Position numbers and translations under genes: made by a program. The notes beneath the pieces were generated by a model. The model was not told the origin of the DNA. It did not search any database and saw only the letters and a list, made by a program, of their open reading frames with translations. Positions 28,289 to 38,512 of a stretch of DNA of 61,011 bases are shown piece by piece (within the stretch, counting starts at the first letter, position 1; every line of letters starts with the position of its first letter). The DNA comes from Actinomycetota bacterium. Its GTDB lineage: Bacteria > Actinomycetota > Acidimicrobiia > Acidimicrobiales > VFJN01. The stretch is from contig VFJN01000084.1 of NCBI GenBank assembly GCA_009886035.1, positions 1-61,011 of the forward strand, read 5' to 3'.

Positions 28289-28308
28289 GCCCCCGGGCCC
28301 CGGGCCTA
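28286..28308. terminator. bidirectional hairpin between convergent genes
   Basis: TAGGCCC (28286-28292) and GGGCCTA (28302-28308) are exact complements around a GC-rich loop. The outer TAG of one arm is the permease stop and the CTA of the other is the ctaG stop. There is no T-run, so termination strength is uncertain, but the placement suits both transcripts. Confidence 0.55.
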
Positions 28309-29199
28309 CCGCTGAGGTTCGGGGACCGTCGGGGCGGGGTGGTCGTGGAAGGATCGCTCCACCTCGTCCCACGTGAGGACCTCGCGTTCGGTGGGCACAT
28401 AGCCGCGGTTGCTGGCCTGCTCATGACGCGCCGCCCACCGGAAGAAGATCACCACGATGATCACCCACAAGAAACTCCCGCCCACCAGTTTCATGATGGC
28501 GCCCGCCGCTTGCTGATCGGTTACCACCGAAATGCCCCACATCCGCTCGGGGATGTCGTAGGTCTTGTACACGGCACCGGTGGCAAACACCATCCAGGCC
28601 CCCGGCACGGTCGGCACGAGTGATTGTATGAAGAGGTAGATCATCTGGCCCGGCAAGGAGATCCGCACCTCGGGGAACGGGCCGCACACCGGCATCCAAA
28701 ACAGCAGGGCTGACGCCACCAGGGCCGTGTGTACCCCGTAATGAAACAGCCCGTTGCTGGCGGCGGTGTTGACCACGATCGGGGCGTGCGACCCCAGGGT
28801 GAGCAAGGCCATGATCGCCCCCGCCGGCACTGGCCGGGCCAGCCGGTGAACGATCGTGTTCACACGGCCATTGCCCACCACGAGGCGGGCCAGCCACTCG
28901 GGAATGGCCATCAACATGGCCGCCGCCACCAGGAGGGTGAGAACGAGATGTTGGCTCATGTGCACGAGAAAGAGATAGCGCTCGGCCACATCGTGGACGG
29001 GCCAATCCGATGCGGCCCACAGCAGAAGGATTGCCATGGCGAACCAACACCACTGCGACCGACTGATGGCGGGGGTCCCAGCCGGAACGATCTTGGGCCC
29101 GATCACCAGCCCGGCGTAGAGATAGAGCCCGGTGATTCCGACCACCAGCAGCCACACTTCGGGGTGGGGCACCCAGGCGAGGAAATCGACCGGTGGCAT
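28306..29199 (-). CDS. ctaG: cytochrome c oxidase assembly factor CtaG
   Basis: The 297-residue polytopic protein matches the caa3-type CtaG family (distinct from Cox11), needed to assemble the copper sites of the oxidase. Motifs are HPEVWLLVVGITGLYLYA, FLVHMSQHLVLTLLVAAAMLMAIPEWL, FHYGVHTALVASALLFW and DQQAAGAIMKLVGGSFLW. It is the last gene of the oxidase operon, 7 nt after the COX4 gene. Confidence 0.92.
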   Translation of the reverse strand: MPPVDFLAWVPHPEVWLLVVGITGLYLYAGLVIGPKIVPAGTPAISRSQWCWFAMAILLLWAASDWPVHDVAERYLFLVHMSQHLVLTLLVAAAMLMAIPEWLARLVVGNGRVNTIVHRLARPVPAGAIMALLTLGSHAPIVVNTAASNGLFHYGVHTALVASALLFWMPVCGPFPEVRISLPGQMIYLFIQSLVPTVPGAWMVFATGAVYKTYDIPERMWGISVVTDQQAAGAIMKLVGGSFLWVIIVVIFFRWAARHEQASNRGYVPTEREVLTWDEVERSFHDHPAPTVPEPQR

Positions 29200-29206
29200 C
29201 AGTGAC

Positions 29207-29560
29207 TCACCGGAGAATCTGGAGAAAGTCGCTGGAGAAAAAGCCGAAGGTGGTCAACATGACGCCGAACACCACCACGGAAAGGAAAAGGCCGAAGAGG
29301 AACACCCGGCGGAAGATCGGATTGTCGTACTTCAGATGCATGAAGTACCCGGCCACTATGAGGAACTTTACGATCATCATCGGCACCAGAATCCCTACCA
29401 ACAACGTGGTCGTGGCTTCTTCGATGAAGTAAGTGCCCACCTCGAGGACGGTGATGAAGGCGAGGATCAGCGTGATCTTCACGTACTGCGCGTCCGACGG
29501 CAGATCGTGACCGTGGCCGACGGGGGCTTCGGCGGGTTCGTTGTCGGTGATGGTGGTCAT
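29207..29560 (-). CDS. cytochrome c oxidase subunit IV
   Basis: The 117-residue protein has three membrane helices and the prokaryotic COX4 signature LIVAGYFMHLKYDNP. It is a small structural subunit of the aa3/caa3 oxidase. A His-rich N-terminus (VGHGHDLP) precedes the first helix. It lies between ctaE and ctaG with 16- and 7-nt gaps. Confidence 0.92.
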   Translation of the reverse strand: MTTITDNEPAEAPVGHGHDLPSDAQYVKITLILAFITVLEVGTYFIEEATTTLLVGILVPMMIVKFLIVAGYFMHLKYDNPIFRRVFLFGLFLSVVVFGVMLTTFGFFSSDFLQILR

Positions 29561-29576: not shown

Positions 29577-30185
29577 TCAAGGGATCAGGTAGACGACGGT
29601 GAAAATGATAATCCACACGATGTCGACAAAGTGCCAGTACAGGCCAATTGTTTCAACCGTTTCCGACCGCTCCGGGCCCAGATTGCCCCGAAACGACATC
29701 ACCAGCATGGACATCAACATCACGATCCCCACACTCACGTGCACGCCGTGGAAGGCGGTGAGCGTGTAAAACGCCGAACCAAAGATGTTGGTGGTGTAGC
29801 CCAAGCCCTCTCGGTAGAAGGTAGTGAACTCGTACACCTGCCCGCCGATGAACACCGCCCCCAGCATGGCGGTAGTGCCCAGCCAGATGCGGTTGAGACG
29901 CACATCCCCGCGCATGAGGGACGACACCGCCAGGACCATCGTGAGCGAACTCATCAGTAGCACGAAGGTGCTGACCGAGGTGAAGGGGATGTCGAATAAT
30001 TCCTCGGGCGTGGGGCCACCCACACTGCGGTGACGGAGCAACAGGTAGGTGGAGATGAGGCTGCCGAACAGCAGGCAATCCGACCCTAAGTACACCCACA
30101 TGGCCAGTTTCGTGTTCGAAATACCCGTCGAGGTGGCGTGACCGTGGTCGGCCGCTCCCGGAGTTCCCAGCGCCGTGTCAGTCAC
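29577..30185 (-). CDS. ctaE: cytochrome c oxidase subunit III
   Basis: The 202-residue subunit has the short five-helix form of bacterial subunit III. Conserved features are WVYLGSDCLLFGSLISTYL, AFYTLTAFHGVHVSVGIVML and GLYWHFVDIVWIIIFTVVYL, including the His, Glu and Asp residues expected of a functional subunit. Its start overlaps the end of ctaD by eight bases. A paralogue lacking these residues is encoded at 34180-34791. Confidence 0.95.
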   Translation of the reverse strand: MTDTALGTPGAADHGHATSTGISNTKLAMWVYLGSDCLLFGSLISTYLLLRHRSVGGPTPEELFDIPFTSVSTFVLLMSSLTMVLAVSSLMRGDVRLNRIWLGTTAMLGAVFIGGQVYEFTTFYREGLGYTTNIFGSAFYTLTAFHGVHVSVGIVMLMSMLVMSFRGNLGPERSETVETIGLYWHFVDIVWIIIFTVVYLIP

Positions 30186-32187
30186 CGACGGTCACCTCTT
30201 CGCGCTCGGCGGCGGGAGCCGCATGGTCGTCATCGCCGTCATCGTGGCCATTGCCGTCGTGGCCGTGCGGGAGTTGGTCCTCATCGTCGCTCGGCTCCAA
30301 CGCCCAGCCCACCATCGAGCCGAGCAGTACCAGGCCGCCCACGAAGGAAATCGCGAGGTTGAAAATGAGGCCATAGCCAATGAGGGGGAAGGCGGTCGCC
30401 ATGACGATCGGCCAGTAGGACGGCGCCGGCAGATGGGCCCGAGAGCCATCGCCGATCATGGCGATCTCTTCGGGCTCGTGCACCTTTACCACCCGACCGG
30501 TTTCGTCGGCCTGGTACTTGCGGTGCCACCAATCATCAAAGTGCACCACCACCGGATCGTCGTCGAAGTTGTGCTCCGGGGTAGGCGAGGGAACGCTCCA
30601 CTCCAGGCTGCGGCCATCCCAGGGATCCGGTCCGGGCGCCGACTGCAGGTGAGCCCCCCGCTTCGAGCGGGCAATGTTCACGAAGAAGATCAGAACGCTC
30701 AGCGCAATGATGAACGCCCCGATGGTGGAGACAAAGTTCCAGAAATTGAAGCCGTACCCATCGCGATACGTCTGGATCCGGCGGTTCATTCCCTGCAGGC
30801 CCAAGATGTGCATAGGGCCGAAGGTGAGGTTGAAGCCCACCAGCGTCAACCAAAAATGCACCTTGCCTAGTTTGTCGTCGAGGAAATAGCCGAACACCTT
30901 CGGCCACCAGAAGTAGAAGCCGCCGAGGAAGCCGAAGAGGGCCCCACCAAAGATCACATAGTGGAAGTGGGCCACGATGTAATACGTGTCGGTTTGTTGC
31001 GTATCAGCGGGGGCCACGGCGTGGGTTACCCCGGACAGACCACCGATGGTGAACATCGCTACCAGCCCGATCGAGAACAACAAGGGGGTGGTGAAGCTGA
31101 TCTTCCCGCCCCACAGCGTGGCCATCCAGTTCAAGATCTTTACCCCGGTGGGCACGGCAATGAACATGGTGGACACCGAGAACGCCGCTACCGAGATTGG
31201 ACCGAGACCGGAGGCGAACATGTGGTGAGCCCACACGCCCCAGCCCATGAACCCGATGGCGATACCCGAGAACACCATGAAGGGGTAACCGAAGATCGGC
31301 TTCCGGGAAAACACCGGGATGATCTCCGAGACGATGCCAAAGGCAGGAAGGATGAGGATGTAGACCTCGGGATGTCCGAAAATCCAGAAGAGGTGCTCCC
31401 AGAGCAGTGGGTCTGCCCCCTGCTGCACGTTGAAGAAGTTGGCGCCGAAGAGTCGGTCGAAGGTGAGCAGGAAAAGCGCCACGGAGATCACCGGCACGGC
31501 AAAGATGAGAAGCACCTGGGTGACCAGGCTCATCCAGGTGAACACCGGCAACTTCATCATCGTCATACCCGGGGCCCGCATGTTGAGCACGGTGACCACG
31601 AGGTTGACACCACCCACCAGCGAGGCGATGCCGGTGATCTGCAGGCCGATGGCGTAGAAGTCCATGCCGTGGCTGGGTGAGAAGATGACGCCGGTGTTGG
31701 GGGCGTAGGCAAACCATCCGCCGTCGGCGCCACCGCCGAGGAACCAGGAGGTGTTGAGGAAGATTCCGCCGAAAATGAACGTCCAGAAACTCAGGGCGTT
31801 GAGGCGGGGGAAGGCCACATCACGAGCCCCGATCTGCAGCGGCATGAGATAGTTCATGAAGGCGGCGCCCATCGGCATCACCACCAAGAAAATCATCGTG
31901 ACGCCGTGCATCGTGAACACCTGGTTGTACAGGGCCGCCGACAGAAGTTTCTGACCGGGCGCCGCCAATTGCGCCCGAATGGCTAGCGCTTCGATGCCAC
32001 CGATCACGAAGAAGAAGAGCGACGACGCTCCGTACATGATGCCGATCTTCTTGTGATCCACCGTGGACACCCAGGAGCGCCACCCAGTTTTGGCCCGGGG
32101 CCGGCTGAACACACCCATCGGGGCGCGAGCCACTCCGGCCCCCGGGGGAAGGGCAAGAATATCTGAGGACCGTTCAATAATCGCCAT
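30178..32187 (-). CDS. ctaD: cytochrome c oxidase subunit I with C-terminal extension
   Basis: This is the catalytic subunit of a type A haem-copper oxidase, reducing oxygen to water and pumping protons. All ligands are present: H94 (TMHGVTM) and H409 for haem a, H407 for haem a3, and H272 (GHPEVY, with E274 and Y276), H321 and H322 (AHHMF) for CuB. At 669 residues it is about 100 longer than a minimal subunit I. After the core come two further hydrophobic segments (YWPIVMATAFPLIGYGLIF, VLLGSMVGWAL) like a fused CtaF subunit, then a His/Asp-rich tail (PHGHDGNGHDDGDDDH). Confidence 0.97.
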   Translation of the reverse strand: MAIIERSSDILALPPGAGVARAPMGVFSRPRAKTGWRSWVSTVDHKKIGIMYGASSLFFFVIGGIEALAIRAQLAAPGQKLLSAALYNQVFTMHGVTMIFLVVMPMGAAFMNYLMPLQIGARDVAFPRLNALSFWTFIFGGIFLNTSWFLGGGADGGWFAYAPNTGVIFSPSHGMDFYAIGLQITGIASLVGGVNLVVTVLNMRAPGMTMMKLPVFTWMSLVTQVLLIFAVPVISVALFLLTFDRLFGANFFNVQQGADPLLWEHLFWIFGHPEVYILILPAFGIVSEIIPVFSRKPIFGYPFMVFSGIAIGFMGWGVWAHHMFASGLGPISVAAFSVSTMFIAVPTGVKILNWMATLWGGKISFTTPLLFSIGLVAMFTIGGLSGVTHAVAPADTQQTDTYYIVAHFHYVIFGGALFGFLGGFYFWWPKVFGYFLDDKLGKVHFWLTLVGFNLTFGPMHILGLQGMNRRIQTYRDGYGFNFWNFVSTIGAFIIALSVLIFFVNIARSKRGAHLQSAPGPDPWDGRSLEWSVPSPTPEHNFDDDPVVVHFDDWWHRKYQADETGRVVKVHEPEEIAMIGDGSRAHLPAPSYWPIVMATAFPLIGYGLIFNLAISFVGGLVLLGSMVGWALEPSDDEDQLPHGHDGNGHDDGDDDHAAPAAEREEVTVGD

Positions 32188-32194
32188 CGGGGGG

Positions 32195-33319
32195 TTACTC
32201 CAGCGTTCTCAGGTAGGCGACGAGGGCATCAATCTGTGACTCAGTAAGTTGAAGGTTCGGCATACCGCGCCCACCCTGGGGATACATCGGCTTCTCGGCG
32301 GGCGGATTGCGGAGCCACTTTTTGACGTCGGCAACATTGAAAATCTTACCGATCTCTTCGGTATCCACCTCCCCGTTTACGTTGGTATCAAGCCAAAGAT
32401 CGAAAATGGAGCCCGCAAATACACCACGACTGGCGAAGTGCGTGAGATTCGGAGCCGCTCCACTCACCTGGGCAGTGCCTTTGTAGATATCGGCATCCCC
32501 GCCCGGCCCGCTCGCGAGGTGACAGCCCGAGCAGGAGATGCGGAACTGCTCGAGGCCCTTCTTAGCCAATGCCTCCTGCGGCACGTCGGCACCGGTGAGT
32601 TGGTTGTCCTGCCATGTCTTGTAGTCGGCGGCGGCCAAGGCGACCACTCGCATTCGCATGTACGAATGGGAAAGACCACAGAACTCGCTGCACTGGCCTC
32701 GGTACACCCCGGGCTCGTCGGCTTCGATGGTGAGCGGCTGGGCCCGTCCGGGAACGGCGTCACGCTTGCCGTTGAGGGCGGGAATCCAGAAGGAGTGGAT
32801 CACGTCACGCGACTGGATGGTGAGAGCGATGGGTTGGCCGACCGGGATCACCAGATCATTTGCCGTGATGATGTCGTCTTCGCCGTCACCATCTACGTCG
32901 TAGCGATACTCCCACCACCACTGCTGACCAATCACCGTGACCTCTTGGGCATCGGCAGGCGTATCGGCGAGATCAAACAGGGTGAACACCGAGGCGGCCC
33001 CCACGCCGGCAAGCACCAGCGCCGGGAGAATGGTCCAGCCGATTTCGAGTTTGAAGTTGCCATGGTGCTGGACCGGAAGGCTGTCGTCGTCTTTACGCCG
33101 ACGGAACTTGATGGCCAGGAACAGCACGCCAAACTCCACCAGCACGAACACCACCGCCGCGATGGCGAAAACGGGCACGACCAGGTTCTGGATGGCGTCG
33201 GCCTCCGGCCCCTTGGGGTTCAGAGAGTCGAGCGGAGCATCGGTGGCACAGGCTCCGAGCGCCAGAAGGATCGGCACTCCCAGCAGCGCCTTCACGAGAC
33301 CAGAGTTACGTAGCTTCAT
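32195..33319 (-). CDS. ctaC: cytochrome c oxidase subunit II fused to cytochrome c
   Basis: The 374-residue protein begins with a lipoprotein-type signal (lipobox LGAC), followed by a membrane helix, the CuA domain (ligands in CSEFCGLSHSYM, about 245) and a C-terminal cytochrome c domain with the haem motif CSGCH and a distal Met in GMPNLQ. This is the caa3 layout, in which the oxidase accepts electrons through its own bound cytochrome c. The ATG at 33319 shares TGATG with the gene upstream; the longer open frame on the same strand runs through that gene and is rejected. Confidence 0.96.
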   Translation of the reverse strand: MKLRNSGLVKALLGVPILLALGACATDAPLDSLNPKGPEADAIQNLVVPVFAIAAVVFVLVEFGVLFLAIKFRRRKDDDSLPVQHHGNFKLEIGWTILPALVLAGVGAASVFTLFDLADTPADAQEVTVIGQQWWWEYRYDVDGDGEDDIITANDLVIPVGQPIALTIQSRDVIHSFWIPALNGKRDAVPGRAQPLTIEADEPGVYRGQCSEFCGLSHSYMRMRVVALAAADYKTWQDNQLTGADVPQEALAKKGLEQFRISCSGCHLASGPGGDADIYKGTAQVSGAAPNLTHFASRGVFAGSIFDLWLDTNVNGEVDTEEIGKIFNVADVKKWLRNPPAEKPMYPQGGRGMPNLQLTESQIDALVAYLRTLE

Positions 33320-34164
33320 CAACCCTCTCCCTCCGGGACGGTGGTCGTCGTGCTCTTGTTGGTGCCCGGCGGAATAAAGGCCTTGTTGCCGGTCCCCGTG
33401 TCTTCGTTGGTGGACTCGTTGGGCGCTTCGGTCACCCGTTCGCCGCGCGACGCCGCCCCCACCCCCGCCACCCCGACACCGATTGCCATGATCACCAGCA
33501 CCCCAGCAATCAAGTTGGGCGACAACGTGGGGCGGCTGGCGAACAGGATGCCCACCAACAGGATGACCGCACCCAGGCCCATCGCCACCGCTACCGCCCC
33601 CAACACCGACGAGGTGAGCAGCAGCCGCGAGAACGCCCCCACCGCACCGCCCACGATGAGAATCCCCACGATCGGGATCTCCAGCGGAGCCATGAAACGG
33701 TTTCGGATCATCCGGTTGGCCGCCGGGTCCCCGGTGGCCCGATCGGACCAGTCGCGCACCATCCACTCGATGAGCACGGCCAGCAGGAGAAAGAGTCCGA
33801 CCACGAACATCACATTGCTCACCACCAGACCCAGCAGGATCAAACCAGCGCCAAAGGCTCCGACCGCGGGCTCAAAGGCTCGTCCGGCCGGAACGGCCTC
33901 GGCGGGGGCGGTCTCCATGCCGGCCAGTTCCGCCAATGCGTTGGACTCGGCGTCGCGGGTGGCCACCGCCACCAGACCCAGGAAGATGCCCAACAGACCA
34001 AAGGACACCAGCAGCGTGTAGCCGAGGTGATCCCCGACACCCCCGTTGTAGCCCGCCGTCACCGGGCCGAGGCCAGTGCCGCCGGTGGTCCACCCATAGA
34101 GAGCCGCCAGGAACAGCGAGAATGCGCCGATGCCGAGAAACGTCTTGGACCCAGTGGTGAACAT
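33319..34164 (-). CDS. membrane protein of the oxidase operon, unknown function
   Basis: The 281-residue protein has about seven membrane helices, a soluble Glu/Ala segment near 75-100 and a Ser/Thr-rich polar C-terminus (KSTTTTVPEGEG). It is not recognised as any known oxidase subunit. It is translationally coupled to ctaC (TGATG) and starts 15 nt after the subunit III-like gene, so it belongs with the oxidase and the pseudo-oxidase module. It may be an assembly or accessory subunit. Confidence 0.75.
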   Translation of the reverse strand: MFTTGSKTFLGIGAFSLFLAALYGWTTGGTGLGPVTAGYNGGVGDHLGYTLLVSFGLLGIFLGLVAVATRDAESNALAELAGMETAPAEAVPAGRAFEPAVGAFGAGLILLGLVVSNVMFVVGLFLLLAVLIEWMVRDWSDRATGDPAANRMIRNRFMAPLEIPIVGILIVGGAVGAFSRLLLTSSVLGAVAVAMGLGAVILLVGILFASRPTLSPNLIAGVLVIMAIGVGVAGVGAASRGERVTEAPNESTNEDTGTGNKAFIPPGTNKSTTTTVPEGEG

Positions 34165-34179
34165 TGCAGGAAACCCTCG

Positions 34180-34791
34180 CTACTTTGTGATGTAGATGCC
34201 GTACCAAATGACGACGTAGACGGCGATGATGGCGAACCAGTAGAGGGCCGCCGCGCTCATACCCTCGGCGTCACGACCAGTGAGCTGACCACCCAGGGCT
34301 TGGAACCCCATGACGGCAATAAACAGCATGCCCACCACCACCATCAACAGGTGGGTAGCGGTGACGATGTAGAGCAGCGTTCCGGCGGTGGAGGCGGTGA
34401 CCCCCATGGCCAACTGTTGGTAGAGGTAAACGGTGGAGTTGATGAAGGCGACGCCGAGGAGCAGCGTGAGCCCAAGAGCCACGTAGGCGTTGGGGCGATC
34501 ATCGTTGCGGAGGGAATAGACCGCCCAACTGATCGTCACCGCCGACATGGCCAGCGTGACCATTCCCATGCTTCCCGGCGTGAGCGGCAGCACAACGCCC
34601 TCGGGGAAGGTGGCATCGCCGGCGGACGCCAGCTGACCCCGCACCTGCAGGTAGACCGCCAATTCCGCCGCCACGAGGAGGACTGACGCCGCCGCACCGA
34701 ACGCGGCCCCCACGAAGAGCACGCGCGGCCGACGGGGCGGCGCGCTCGGGGCATTGATGAGGGGATTTTGGGCGACCGGAGCGGTGCTCAT
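34180..34791 (-). CDS. subunit III-like protein, degenerate
   Basis: The 203-residue, five-helix protein is a distant homologue of oxidase subunit III, seen by aligning it with CtaE. LLYIVTATHLLMVVVGMLF matches AFYTLTAFHGVHVSVGIVM and ALYWFAIIAVYVVIWYGIYI matches LYWHFVDIVWIIIFTVVYL. The FHG-HV and WHFVD residues are lost. The ATG overlaps the stop of the subunit I-like gene (ATGA), so the two are made together. It probably binds the degenerate subunit I as CtaE binds CtaD. Confidence 0.75.
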   Translation of the reverse strand: MSTAPVAQNPLINAPSAPPRRPRVLFVGAAFGAAASVLLVAAELAVYLQVRGQLASAGDATFPEGVVLPLTPGSMGMVTLAMSAVTISWAVYSLRNDDRPNAYVALGLTLLLGVAFINSTVYLYQQLAMGVTASTAGTLLYIVTATHLLMVVVGMLFIAVMGFQALGGQLTGRDAEGMSAAALYWFAIIAVYVVIWYGIYITK

Positions 34792-36425
34792 TGAGCGGAA
34801 GCCTCCTGGTGACGGGCGTCGTAGAGCGGCGCCTCCGACGTAATCTCGGGGAGGCTGGGGAAATTCCCCGCCGGCGGTGGAGAAGACGTAGCCCACTCGA
34901 GCGTATGGCCCGACCAGGGATCATCGCCCACCCCCTCGTGGCCCCGAATCGCCTGAACCACCAGGCCGAGGAACCCGAGGAACCCGAGGGCAAGGAACAA
35001 ACCCCCCGCCAGCGACACCGCGTTGAGGCCTTCGATCGCGGTGACGTTCTCGGCCACCGGACCCGGGATGTCGCCACCCTGGCCCAGTAGCCCGGAGACC
35101 AAATCGGGGAAGCTCCAGAGCACTGTGCCCACCAACAGGAGCGCCGCAACCCCGCGAGCGGCCCCCTCTCGCAAGCCGCGCCCGATCAATTTAGGGGCCC
35201 AGAACGTGATGCCCCCCAGAAGCGCAATGGCGAGCGACAACAGCACGTACGACGCCACCGCGGTGGTCCATGACGTGCCGTAGAGCGAAGTGGCGGGCCC
35301 GTCGACCAGCGTTTTGATCGGCTCGATGGCTTGCACCGCCCCCGCCAACAGCCCCACCAGCAGCATCAGCAGCGCCGACGCGGCAAAGAGCAACGGGCTG
35401 GCCAGGGTGACCTGTCCGTTCCGAAGGGTGACCGCCCACAATCCCACCAACGCCAGGACGGGGATCAGAATAAGGAAGGACACCGCCACCCAAGGCAGTT
35501 GGTAGAGCCACGGAGTGCTCGCGCCGACGAAACTGGGCAGGGCCCAGCCCCCGATGACCAAGGCGCCCACGGCGGCGATGGCGGTGCGGGCGAAGCGGTG
35601 CAGGTGATGTCGGGTGGCGCTAAGGACGGGCACCACCGTGGCGATGAACCCGAGCACCGGAAGAGCGAAGGCGTAGACCGCCGGCGGGCCGAAGACCCAG
35701 CTGATGCGGGCGTAAATGCTGGCGCTGTCTTCGCCGAGGTAGCGCACAAAGACGTAGGTGATCACCAACATGGCCACCAACACGGGCAGGGTGAGCAGCC
35801 AAACGGCGCCCGCTATCAAAACCGACCAGGAAAATAGAGGGGTGCGGGCCAGCGTCATACCCGGGGCCCGCAGGGTGACGACCGTGGTCATGATGCAGAT
35901 CCACGCCAGCAGTTCCGAGACGACCACCAACCCGAGGCCCGCCACAAAAAGCCGCACACCGTCGAGACTCGTGCCGAAGGGCCCACCGTCGATCGAATAG
36001 GCCCCGATGACGAGACCACTTCCCACGAGGTAACCCCACACGGCGGCGGCGGCGGCCCGGGGGAAGGCAATTGTGGAGGCCCCCACCTGGAGGGGGACGA
36101 TCACGGTGGCGAGGCCGATCGTGATCGGTAAGAGCACGAGGAAGGTGCCCCCGATCGCTCGATACGTGACGATCTGGGAGAACCAGTCGCTCGGACTATC
36201 GGTGAGTTTGGTGAGGCCAGCCAGGTCGAGGCGCATGGCGGCGACATAGAGCGACGCTCCCAGTACGAGCAGCAACTGCGCCAGGGCGGCCACGATCCAA
36301 AGCCGCCCCACCAGCTTGTGGTCGCCCGACGACAGTACGGCCACGAGCCCGGAGGGGGACGAGGCGGGGGTACTGGGCGCTGGGGCCACCAGTTCGGAGA
36401 CCGGAGCGTCTTCTGTGACGGTCAT
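34788..36425 (-). CDS. cytochrome oxidase subunit I homologue lacking all metal ligands
   Basis: The 545-residue, roughly 12-helix protein is clearly homologous to CtaD. PLQVGASTIAFPR, TLRAPGMTLARTPLFSW, LPVLGFIATVVPVLS, LLGGITFWAPKLIG and DPWSGHTLEW each have a matching CtaD segment. Yet every redox ligand is replaced: haem a ligands R89 (His in CtaD) and A391, haem a3 ligand A389, and CuB ligands P247 (GPPAVY for GHPEVY) and L296-P297 (for His-His). The proton-path Glu is A249; only the Tyr (Y251) remains. It cannot be an oxygen reductase. The frame is intact and coupled to its neighbours, so it looks selected, not decaying. A structural or assembly role is inferred. Confidence 0.88.
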   Translation of the reverse strand: MTVTEDAPVSELVAPAPSTPASSPSGLVAVLSSGDHKLVGRLWIVAALAQLLLVLGASLYVAAMRLDLAGLTKLTDSPSDWFSQIVTYRAIGGTFLVLLPITIGLATVIVPLQVGASTIAFPRAAAAAVWGYLVGSGLVIGAYSIDGGPFGTSLDGVRLFVAGLGLVVVSELLAWICIMTTVVTLRAPGMTLARTPLFSWSVLIAGAVWLLTLPVLVAMLVITYVFVRYLGEDSASIYARISWVFGPPAVYAFALPVLGFIATVVPVLSATRHHLHRFARTAIAAVGALVIGGWALPSFVGASTPWLYQLPWVAVSFLILIPVLALVGLWAVTLRNGQVTLASPLLFAASALLMLLVGLLAGAVQAIEPIKTLVDGPATSLYGTSWTTAVASYVLLSLAIALLGGITFWAPKLIGRGLREGAARGVAALLLVGTVLWSFPDLVSGLLGQGGDIPGPVAENVTAIEGLNAVSLAGGLFLALGFLGFLGLVVQAIRGHEGVGDDPWSGHTLEWATSSPPPAGNFPSLPEITSEAPLYDARHQEASAQ

Positions 36426-36511: not shown

Positions 36512-37456
36512 TCACCATCCGAAACGCAGCAACTGATCCAGGGCCATGGCCACGAACAGAAGGGTGAGGTAGGTGATCGACCAAGTAAAGAGGCGCATCG
36601 CCGTGGAGCGGATCTCCGGCTCGCTCGATCCGCCCGCCGCCGGGCCGGATCGCTCCACCCGATTGGCCAGGGTGAGCAACCGCAGTGCGTGGTAGGTGAA
36701 AACCGCCCCCAGCACGACGGCCGAGCCGAGGTACACCAGCCCCATGTCGCCTATCGGGGTAAAAACGAGCGTGATGGCCCAGAGAAAAAGCGTGTAAGCC
36801 AAGATTCGCTCCGCCGTGCGCTTGAGATTCACCACCGACGGCAGCATTGGCACATCCGCCGCCGTGTAGTCGTCCCGGTAGCGGATGGCGAGGGCCCAGA
36901 AGTGCGGAGGCGTCCAGTAGAAGACGATGGCGAAGAGGACCACGGGCTCCCAGCCGAGACTGTCGGTTACCGCACTCCACCCGATGAGGACCGGAGCGGC
37001 GCCGGCCGCCCCCCCGATGACAATGTTGTGGGTCGAGGTGCGCTTCAGCCACAACGTGTAGACGAACACGTAGAAAAGACAGGCAGCCACGGCGAGCGCC
37101 GCACTCAGCAAGTTCACCGTGGCCCACAGGAACAAGAAGGCCAGGATCTCCAAGCCGATGGCGAAGATCAAGGCGGATCGGGGCGTCAGCGCCCCGGTGA
37201 CCAGCGGCCGGTTCTTGGTGCGCTCCATGAGGGAATCGATGTCGCGGTCGACGTACATGTTGATGGCGTTGGCGCCACCGGCCGCCAGGGTGCCCCCCAG
37301 CACGGTGCAGACCATCAACCACAGCGGCGGCATACCCTGCTCAGCCACCACCATCGTGGGGACGGTGGTCACCAGCAGCAGCTCGATGATCCTCGGCTTG
37401 GTGAGCGCCACGTAGGCGCGGATGCGCGCAGCAGGAGAGAGGACAACGGCGGACAC
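36512..37456 (-). CDS. ctaB: haem O synthase (protohaem IX farnesyltransferase)
   Basis: CtaB attaches a farnesyl group to haem B, the first step to haem A. The 314 residues form about nine helices with the first Asp-rich prenyl motif NMYVDRDIDSLMERT and a second region YRDDYTAADVPMLP. TKPRIIELLLVTTVPTM opens the protein. The GTG at 37456 is chosen because a TAGCCT hexamer lies 8 nt upstream; the open frame beyond overlaps ctaA. Confidence 0.95.
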   Translation of the reverse strand: MSAVVLSPAARIRAYVALTKPRIIELLLVTTVPTMVVAEQGMPPLWLMVCTVLGGTLAAGGANAINMYVDRDIDSLMERTKNRPLVTGALTPRSALIFAIGLEILAFLFLWATVNLLSAALAVAACLFYVFVYTLWLKRTSTHNIVIGGAAGAAPVLIGWSAVTDSLGWEPVVLFAIVFYWTPPHFWALAIRYRDDYTAADVPMLPSVVNLKRTAERILAYTLFLWAITLVFTPIGDMGLVYLGSAVVLGAVFTYHALRLLTLANRVERSGPAAGGSSEPEIRSTAMRLFTWSITYLTLLFVAMALDQLLRFGW

Positions 37457-37470: not shown

Positions 37471-37536
37471 GGGCTGCCCGTGGCCACGGGGCGAACCCTG
37501 AGAGCCGCTGGCTGGAGCCGCTGGGTCTGTGGTCCG

Positions 37537-37542
37537 TAGCCT
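37537..37542 (+). promoter_or_regulatory. -10 hexamer of ctaA
   Basis: TAGCCT, 7 nt before the GTG at 37550. It overlaps an earlier in-frame GTG at 37529, which is therefore disfavoured. Confidence 0.5.
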
Positions 37543-37549
37543 GGGGATC

Positions 37550-38512
37550 GTGCTTCGTATCCGCCGGTACCTCGTCGCCGTCTGGCGGGGCCCGATCCGC
37601 CCCGAGACCTACCGAGTGATCACCGCCGCCGCGCTGGTGGCGGTATGCGCCATCATCGTGTCGGGGGCCGCCGTTCGGCTCACCGGCTCGGGAATGGGGT
37701 GTCCCACCTGGCCGTCGTGCGAGAGCGGTTCGCTCGTCCCCCGCGGGGCTACCGGCGGCCATGGATGGATTGAGTTCGTGAACCGCACCTTCACCGGCGC
37801 GGTGTCGGTGGCGGTGGCCATTGCGGTGCTCGGCTCTCATCGCCGCCAACCGCGCCGGAGAGACCTCATCTTCTGGTCGTGGGGCCTCGTGGCCGGGGTG
37901 CTGGCCCAGGCTCTGCTCGGCGGAATGGTCGTGCTTCTCCACGTCACCCCGATCGCCGTGGCGGGTCACTACCTCCTCTCGGCCGTCCTGGTGGCCAACG
38001 CGGTAATCCTCCACCACAAGGCCAGCGAGCCCGATGGCCCGCGGCGAGCCCGGGCCACCCCGAGCCTCATGGCGCGCTCGCGCGTGCTGGTGGGCCTCGC
38101 CGGGTTAGTCCTGCTGACCGGAACCGTCGTCACCGGCAGCGGGCCCCACAGCGGCGACACGGCCGCCGACCGCCTTCCCTTTATGGTTTCCACCGTTGCT
38201 CGGATACACAGCCTCACCGTCTGGGCCTTCCTGCTCACCGCGGTGATCGTGCTGCGCATGGTGACCGCCGGCGATGCGGCGGCGTCCACCGTTGGCCGAG
38301 GCCGCCTGCTCGTGGGCGCGATCCTGGCCCAGGGACTGCTCGGCTATGTGCAGTACTTTGCGGGGGTGCCGGAGATCCTCGTGGGAGCTCACGTGGCCGG
38401 CTCAGTGCTCGTCTGGGTAGCTGCTCTCCGCTTCTACCTCGCCCTTACCGAGCCGATCCCCACCATCACCCCACCGGCCCTGCCGCGCCCGCTGGCCCCG
38501 GTGGTGGGCTGA
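37550..38512 (+). CDS. ctaA: haem A synthase (CtaA/Cox15)
   Basis: CtaA oxidises haem O to haem A. The 320-residue membrane protein has eight helices in two related halves, a Cys pair in [14 protein letters not shown], and three of the four expected haem-ligand histidines: VAGHYLL, ARIHSLT and GAHVAGS. The fourth, normally in an ExxHR motif, reads EFVNR, with Asn in the His position; this may be usual in actinobacterial members. Its stop overlaps the clpS start (TGATG). It diverges from ctaB, the enzyme before it in the pathway. Confidence 0.93.

Follow-up and report, generated by a model that had tools for sequence, protein, structure and literature searches.

The oxidase operon in the 61,011-nucleotide stretch of Acidimicrobiales DNA analysed here (the window) raises the question of why a cytochrome oxidase subunit I homologue stripped of its metal ligands is kept beside an active one. 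The gene at 34788..36425 is read on the minus strand, from 36425 down to 34788 (an earlier sequence-only reading gave no strand), and encodes CtaD', a cofactor-free COX1 paralogue or pseudo-oxidase core of 545 aa. The intact frame and subunit I sequence seen in that reading proved to be those of a full-length COX1 protein: Pfam COX1 (PF00115) matches it from end to end (E=2.8e-49; 168.6 bits against a cut-off of 34.8, hence family-level similarity), and mycobacterial CtaD (6adq_F) matches at E=6.6e-56. Its nearest solved structures are mycobacterial and corynebacterial CtaD, the window's own CtaD shares 28% identity with it (E=1e-58), and on the equivalog-level CtaD model TIGR02891 it scores 226.9 bits, short of the cut-off of 670.75. 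Compared with the CtaD found in the mycobacterial bc1:aa3 supercomplex, an AlphaFold2 model made with 25 family members as input (mean pLDDT 84.8, pTM 0.89) reached a TM-score of 0.83, which identifies a COX1 fold. Since the modelled fold is complete, the missing ligands sit inside an otherwise whole protein.

Ligand positions were assigned by aligning CtaD' to two references, the active CtaD of the window and the mycobacterial protein. All six histidines are replaced, by R, S, V, P, L and P, as had been claimed: the haem-a ligands by R89 in helix II and by S392, the haem-a3 ligand by V390, and the CuB ligands by P247 (GHPEVY having become GPPAVY, which begins at 246) and by L296 and P297 in place of HH. 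The loss of HFH also stands, at a corrected position, this motif aligning with VAS at 390-392 and not with AVA at 389-391. The Glu286 equivalent, the proton-path glutamate whose loss had been noted, is A249, and the tyrosine near it is retained as Y251. The K-path lysine (Lys362 equivalent) and both haem-propionate arginines are gone, and the Asn139 equivalent is replaced as well, so that neither the D nor the K proton path is retained. With these sites absent, the alignment agrees with the earlier statement that the window protein cannot bind haem a, haem a3 or CuB.

A shift of the ligands to nearby positions, which the sequence-only reading had named as grounds for its own rejection, was checked and rejected. 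The seven histidines of CtaD' (36, 273, 274, 276, 496, 507 and 539) are located in loops or at the ends of helices, outside the membrane core as delimited from the AlphaFold2 model, and C177 is the single cysteine; no alternative set of haem or copper ligands is visible in the window CtaD'. That displaced or alternative ligands still allow the protein to bind metal or haem is very improbable: the retained Y251 and the one CuB-position histidine of a few other members might point that way, but a transmembrane core without histidine and a lone cysteine argue against it. Because the defining ligands are absent, CtaD' cannot be classed among the haem-copper oxidases and is instead a variant of their fold without cofactors.

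The surroundings of the gene bear out its earlier placement in an oxidase operon, the order being ctaB, CtaD', CtaE', CtaF', ctaC, ctaD, ctaE, subunit IV and ctaG, with ctaA divergent. All but ctaA lie on the minus strand. The active caa3-type oxidase comprises CtaC, a subunit II with a C-terminal cytochrome c (32195..33316, start approximate; PF00116 at 6.2e-24, PF02790, PF00034); CtaD, an active subunit I with all six histidines present in the ligand table (30178..32187; TIGR02891 at 691.7 bits, over the cut-off); CtaE, its subunit III (29577..30185; PF00510); and subunit IV (COX4_pro, 29207..29560; PF03626). A C-terminal extension of the active CtaD (window 30289-30447, residues 581-633) weakly matches PF12270, the actinobacterial subunit IV (E=1e-4, below cut-off). 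Two observations concern other parts of the same genome (G000). A further COX1 protein (L003, G000:C77:14330-15835), whose open frame is long (848 aa) and retains all six histidines, belongs to a separate terminal oxidase. In a separate Rieske cluster (L163, G000:C128), cytochrome b is encoded in two pieces by two genes (262 and 253 aa), whereas QcrB is a single gene in most Actinomycetota.

CtaD' is joined to the next gene by an ATGA overlap, reported earlier and read directly in the DNA. That gene encodes CtaE', a COX3/CtaE-like partner of 203 aa (34180..34791, minus strand; PF00510, E=1.5e-15; NF050119 aa3_CtaE_Actin, E=7.6e-13, under its cut-off). Then comes CtaF' (33319..34164, minus strand), a protein with no database name that resembles CtaF, the actinobacterial COX4, and has extra transmembrane helices. 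When its family profile (A3) was compared with the PDB, the four top matches were all actinobacterial CtaF (1.2e-6 to 4.3e-5), and the match at E=1.2e-6 spans the first half of the protein. Foldseek with the CtaF' model, whose pTM is only 0.55, also gave CtaF as the two best matches, weakly (E 0.14-0.18) and with a low TM-score. Reading the three genes as a single three-part module depends on this moderate CtaF match. As CtaE-like and CtaF-like genes follow CtaD', the operon looks like one that carries a second CtaD-CtaE-CtaF core, without a subunit II of its own.

Genes for haem A synthesis and assembly flank this module, which makes a transient role in assembly the main rival of the structural-partner model that we favour below. 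CtaD' could be a maturation platform that binds assembly factors, or transiently receives CtaE/CtaC, during haem A and copper insertion into the real CtaD, and that is absent from the final enzyme. Its gene lies between ctaB, for haem O synthase (36512..37414, minus strand; UbiA PF01040, 1e-64), and ctaC, while ctaA, for haem A synthase (37529..38512, plus strand; PF02628, 1.5e-19), and the gene for a CtaG-like assembly factor (28306..29199, minus strand; PF09678) occupy the ends of the cluster. A thioredoxin-like gene moreover adjoins the module in several early-branching operons, and such proteins are often used in metal-site assembly. Co-transcription alone would be compatible with an assembly factor too. 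Still, the whole CtaE-like and CtaF-like set is kept, which goes beyond the needs of a chaperone, and deep relatives with haem ligands and a blue-copper site indicate an enzyme-like origin; we therefore think this role unlikely, if the strongest of the alternatives.

Whether the arrangement is peculiar to this genome was answered by related sequences. A relative with 87% protein identity occurs on a contig of Candidatus Microthrix parvicella, which NCBI taxonomy places in the Acidimicrobiia, Acidimicrobiales; a peptide-pattern scan of genome contigs returned only one relative, its patterns probably being too specific. With 60 relatives and 298 genomes of Acidimicrobiales searched, CtaD' was found in many families of the order, and the 60 loci read from these genomes had nearly all the same gene order. 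The sequence-only reading had proposed looking for the homologue beside a functional ctaD in related genomes. From 130 CtaD' coordinates, leaving aside six pairs on different contigs and 26 active genes missing from the active-CtaD list used, all 98 resolvable pairs lay on one contig and one strand, with CtaD' upstream of the active gene by 2593 to 3417 bases. Twenty further operons with an active ctaD of this type were read, the majority chosen for want of a clear CtaD' signal from the profile, and 18 contained it; of the other two, one starts within CtaE' where its contig ends, and for the other the upstream stretch that was read is too short. We thus know of no ctaD operon of this type without CtaD' among those inspected where the stretch was readable. 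All 54 active CtaD proteins of the first set keep the six histidines, and of the three at CuB every CtaD' inspected retains at most one. A search through the order, the class and the phylum for a CtaD' with a full CuB site, as a functional ancestor would have, found none; the best comparably scoring matches outside the order, as read, are ordinary CtaD with six histidines.

Such constancy is hard to reconcile with a decaying duplicate without function. The earlier reading took the intact frame as a sign of selection, and the dN/dS check that it proposed gave an omega of 0.14-0.24 for CtaD'. In pairwise comparison with M. parvicella (dS 0.30-0.46 by NG86), omega by NG86 was 0.23 for CtaD', 0.10 for CtaE', 0.25 for CtaF', 0.09 for CtaD and 0.14 for CtaC; the YN00 values were 0.14, 0.06, 0.22, 0.07 and 0.11. 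The three module genes are therefore under purifying selection (NG86 omega 0.10-0.25). Decay would account for the lost ligands and for an evolution faster than that of the active subunits, but frames are open across scores of genomes, omega is well below 1, and synteny is constant and the partners are kept throughout the order; we give this explanation hardly any credence.

How the constraint is distributed along CtaD' is also informative. Compared with the active proteins, conservation is 0.79-0.93 in helices III-V with the IV-V loop, in the X-XI loop and at the C-terminus; it is lowest, 0.60-0.67, in helices VI-X, which hold five of the six ligands, and in helix XI. In cytochrome oxidase structures, helices III-VI make up the face of subunit I that is turned towards subunit III. 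The pattern is consistent with a kept subunit III contact and a released cofactor pocket. The module evolves faster than the active subunits, as both omega and its long branches indicate, and the constraint on an interface therefore looks moderate.

A maximum-likelihood tree, from which the ligand columns were left out, indicates how the present state arose; it was a quick search with some long branches, and its deepest order is unsure. All 61 CtaD' sequences group in a single clade (SH-aLRT 100), placed among actinobacterial CtaD sequences of the aa3 type. An origin of CtaD' as a duplicate of the neighbouring ctaD was considered and rejected, the tree placing CtaD' elsewhere. Deep branches of the clade keep most ligands, and the complete replacement of metal ligands stated earlier is therefore true of the window but not of the whole family, in which relatives keep one or two haem sites. 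In five of the first operons, both haem-a histidines and the haem-a3 histidine are kept, the CuB positions being R-A-G or R-L-P; in another, the same three are kept with L-A-L. Intermediate members keep the haem-a pair only, and 44 of the 61 have lost that pair. One CuB-position histidine occurs in 5/61 and two in 0/61. One CtaD' of a Gln-type lineage (L060/L164, G231) has the haem-a pair and the a3 histidine with a CtaF-like partner that lacks a cupredoxin. Parsimony on the tree gives six changes for the haem-a pair, five for the a3 histidine and three for the cupredoxin. The nearest sister group of the window CtaD' (L095, L126) still has the haem-a pair, and the loss in the window lineage is therefore comparatively recent. 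The window CtaD' is an end stage of an order-wide family.

In the operons described above with R-A-G, R-L-P or L-A-L, CtaF' ends in a cupredoxin domain that has a type 1 copper motif (Cupredoxin_1, E=1.6e-11 in one early-branching homologue), a domain that is missing from the window CtaF'. CtaF-like proteins with such a domain and motif (e.g. CDFHxNM) occur in the early-branching operons L109 (5135-6136), L110 (8555-9553), L128 (12051-13025), L132, L165 and L085, and possibly the cupredoxin is an electron donor to a haem-keeping CtaD'. Several of these operons have a TlpA/thioredoxin-like gene between the CtaF-like gene and ctaC (L109:6091-6732, L110:8052-8600, L132:548-1132), which the window lacks. 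In family f7 (L104, L106, L111, L112, L116 and L117), the CtaF-like protein is extended at its C-terminus by a segment that lacks copper ligands and could be a degenerate cupredoxin; a Pfam scan of two examples (L111, L112) gave no significant match. A strict coupling of haem-a3 histidine loss with cupredoxin loss was near perfect at first and failed on wider sampling, the exceptions being L164 (a3 histidine without cupredoxin) and L132 and L165 (cupredoxin without a3 histidine), and the association is not significant on the tree. As to the distribution of the cupredoxin, we claim only that it is restricted to deep branches.

Glutamine is the commonest replacement at the haem-a3 position (23/61) and at two CuB positions (30/61 and 38/61), and this points to a polar pocket that much of the family has conserved. 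The emptied pocket could then bind another ligand, such as menaquinone or lipid, or conduct protons or ions, with the module still performing chemistry or transport, and the quinone that CydB binds at haem positions would be a precedent (PMC6853902). The window CtaD' does not follow the glutamine pattern, having V at the a3 position and P, L and P at the CuB positions, and its D- and K-path residues are lost; we consider this explanation improbable, somewhat more so than a role in maturation.

Selection keeps an intact but stripped copy, and CtaD' therefore probably serves the working enzyme as a structural partner. The reading that we favour, with modest confidence, is that the active caa3-type oxidase has the CtaD'-CtaE'-CtaF' pseudo-oxidase module as an obligate structural partner; a scaffold or part of a larger complex was among the earlier suggestions, of which the chaperone and the quinone- or lipid-binding options are kept here as rivals. 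CtaD', without redox centres, would form a membrane module with its CtaE-like and CtaF-like partners; the module would dock permanently on the active oxidase (CtaC-CtaD-CtaE-COX4) of the same operon and would stabilise or orient it, and its emptied haem pocket may be filled by lipid or quinone. We infer this physical complex, the stabilising role and the filling of the pocket from the conserved features above, and two known systems offer precedents. In M. smegmatis, CtaE and CtaF together are the equivalent of subunit III and mediate III-IV contacts (PMC8361435), and CydB has the fold of CydA without haem and carries, along the former haem positions, a quinone with a proposed stabilising effect on it (PMC6853902). 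More tentatively, Acidimicrobiales with this oxidase may use a two-core terminal oxidase in which an active core is obligately paired with a stripped one, and living lineages might preserve the steps that turned a respiratory enzyme into a structural subunit, from two haem sites without CuB and a fused blue-copper donor to haem a only and then to an empty protein.

Throughout an order, a central respiratory operon contains such a subunit I homologue without haem ligands as a fixed element, together with intermediates that keep some cofactor sites. We know of no earlier description, in the haem-copper superfamily, of a subunit I that lacks haem ligands. A search of the open literature found no description of such a protein, which is weak evidence of absence, subscription papers being mostly outside its scope. 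Automatic annotation is likely to label these genes cytochrome c oxidase subunit I. The family would allow tests of how a redox enzyme turns into a scaffold, of what subunit I contributes beyond catalysis, and of terminal oxidases as asymmetric pairs.

Among known systems, the aa3 CtaD of M. smegmatis and C. glutamicum is closest to CtaD', sharing the COX1 fold, the best sequence and structure match, and CtaE-like and CtaF-like companions. It differs in that CtaD' lacks the metal ligands, the proton-path residues and a subunit II of its own, and adjoins another complete oxidase. NorB of nitric oxide reductases likewise has a COX1 fold without CuB. NorB, however, keeps all six histidines and binds iron in place of copper, whereas the window CtaD' keeps no ligand histidine and its deepest relatives lack a complete CuB site; the combination of six histidines with FeB-site glutamates that marks NorB is not found in CtaD', whose best matches are CtaD. 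CydB of cytochrome bd belongs to another fold family and has been seen in structures of its complex, while the complex of CtaD' is a proposed one. CtaD' would nevertheless resemble CydB as a cofactor-free partner of the same fold as its active core subunit: it is homologous to that subunit by alignment, tree and fold, lacks the haem ligands, and is accompanied by it in all 98 pairs and, wherever the stretch was readable, in the further operons.
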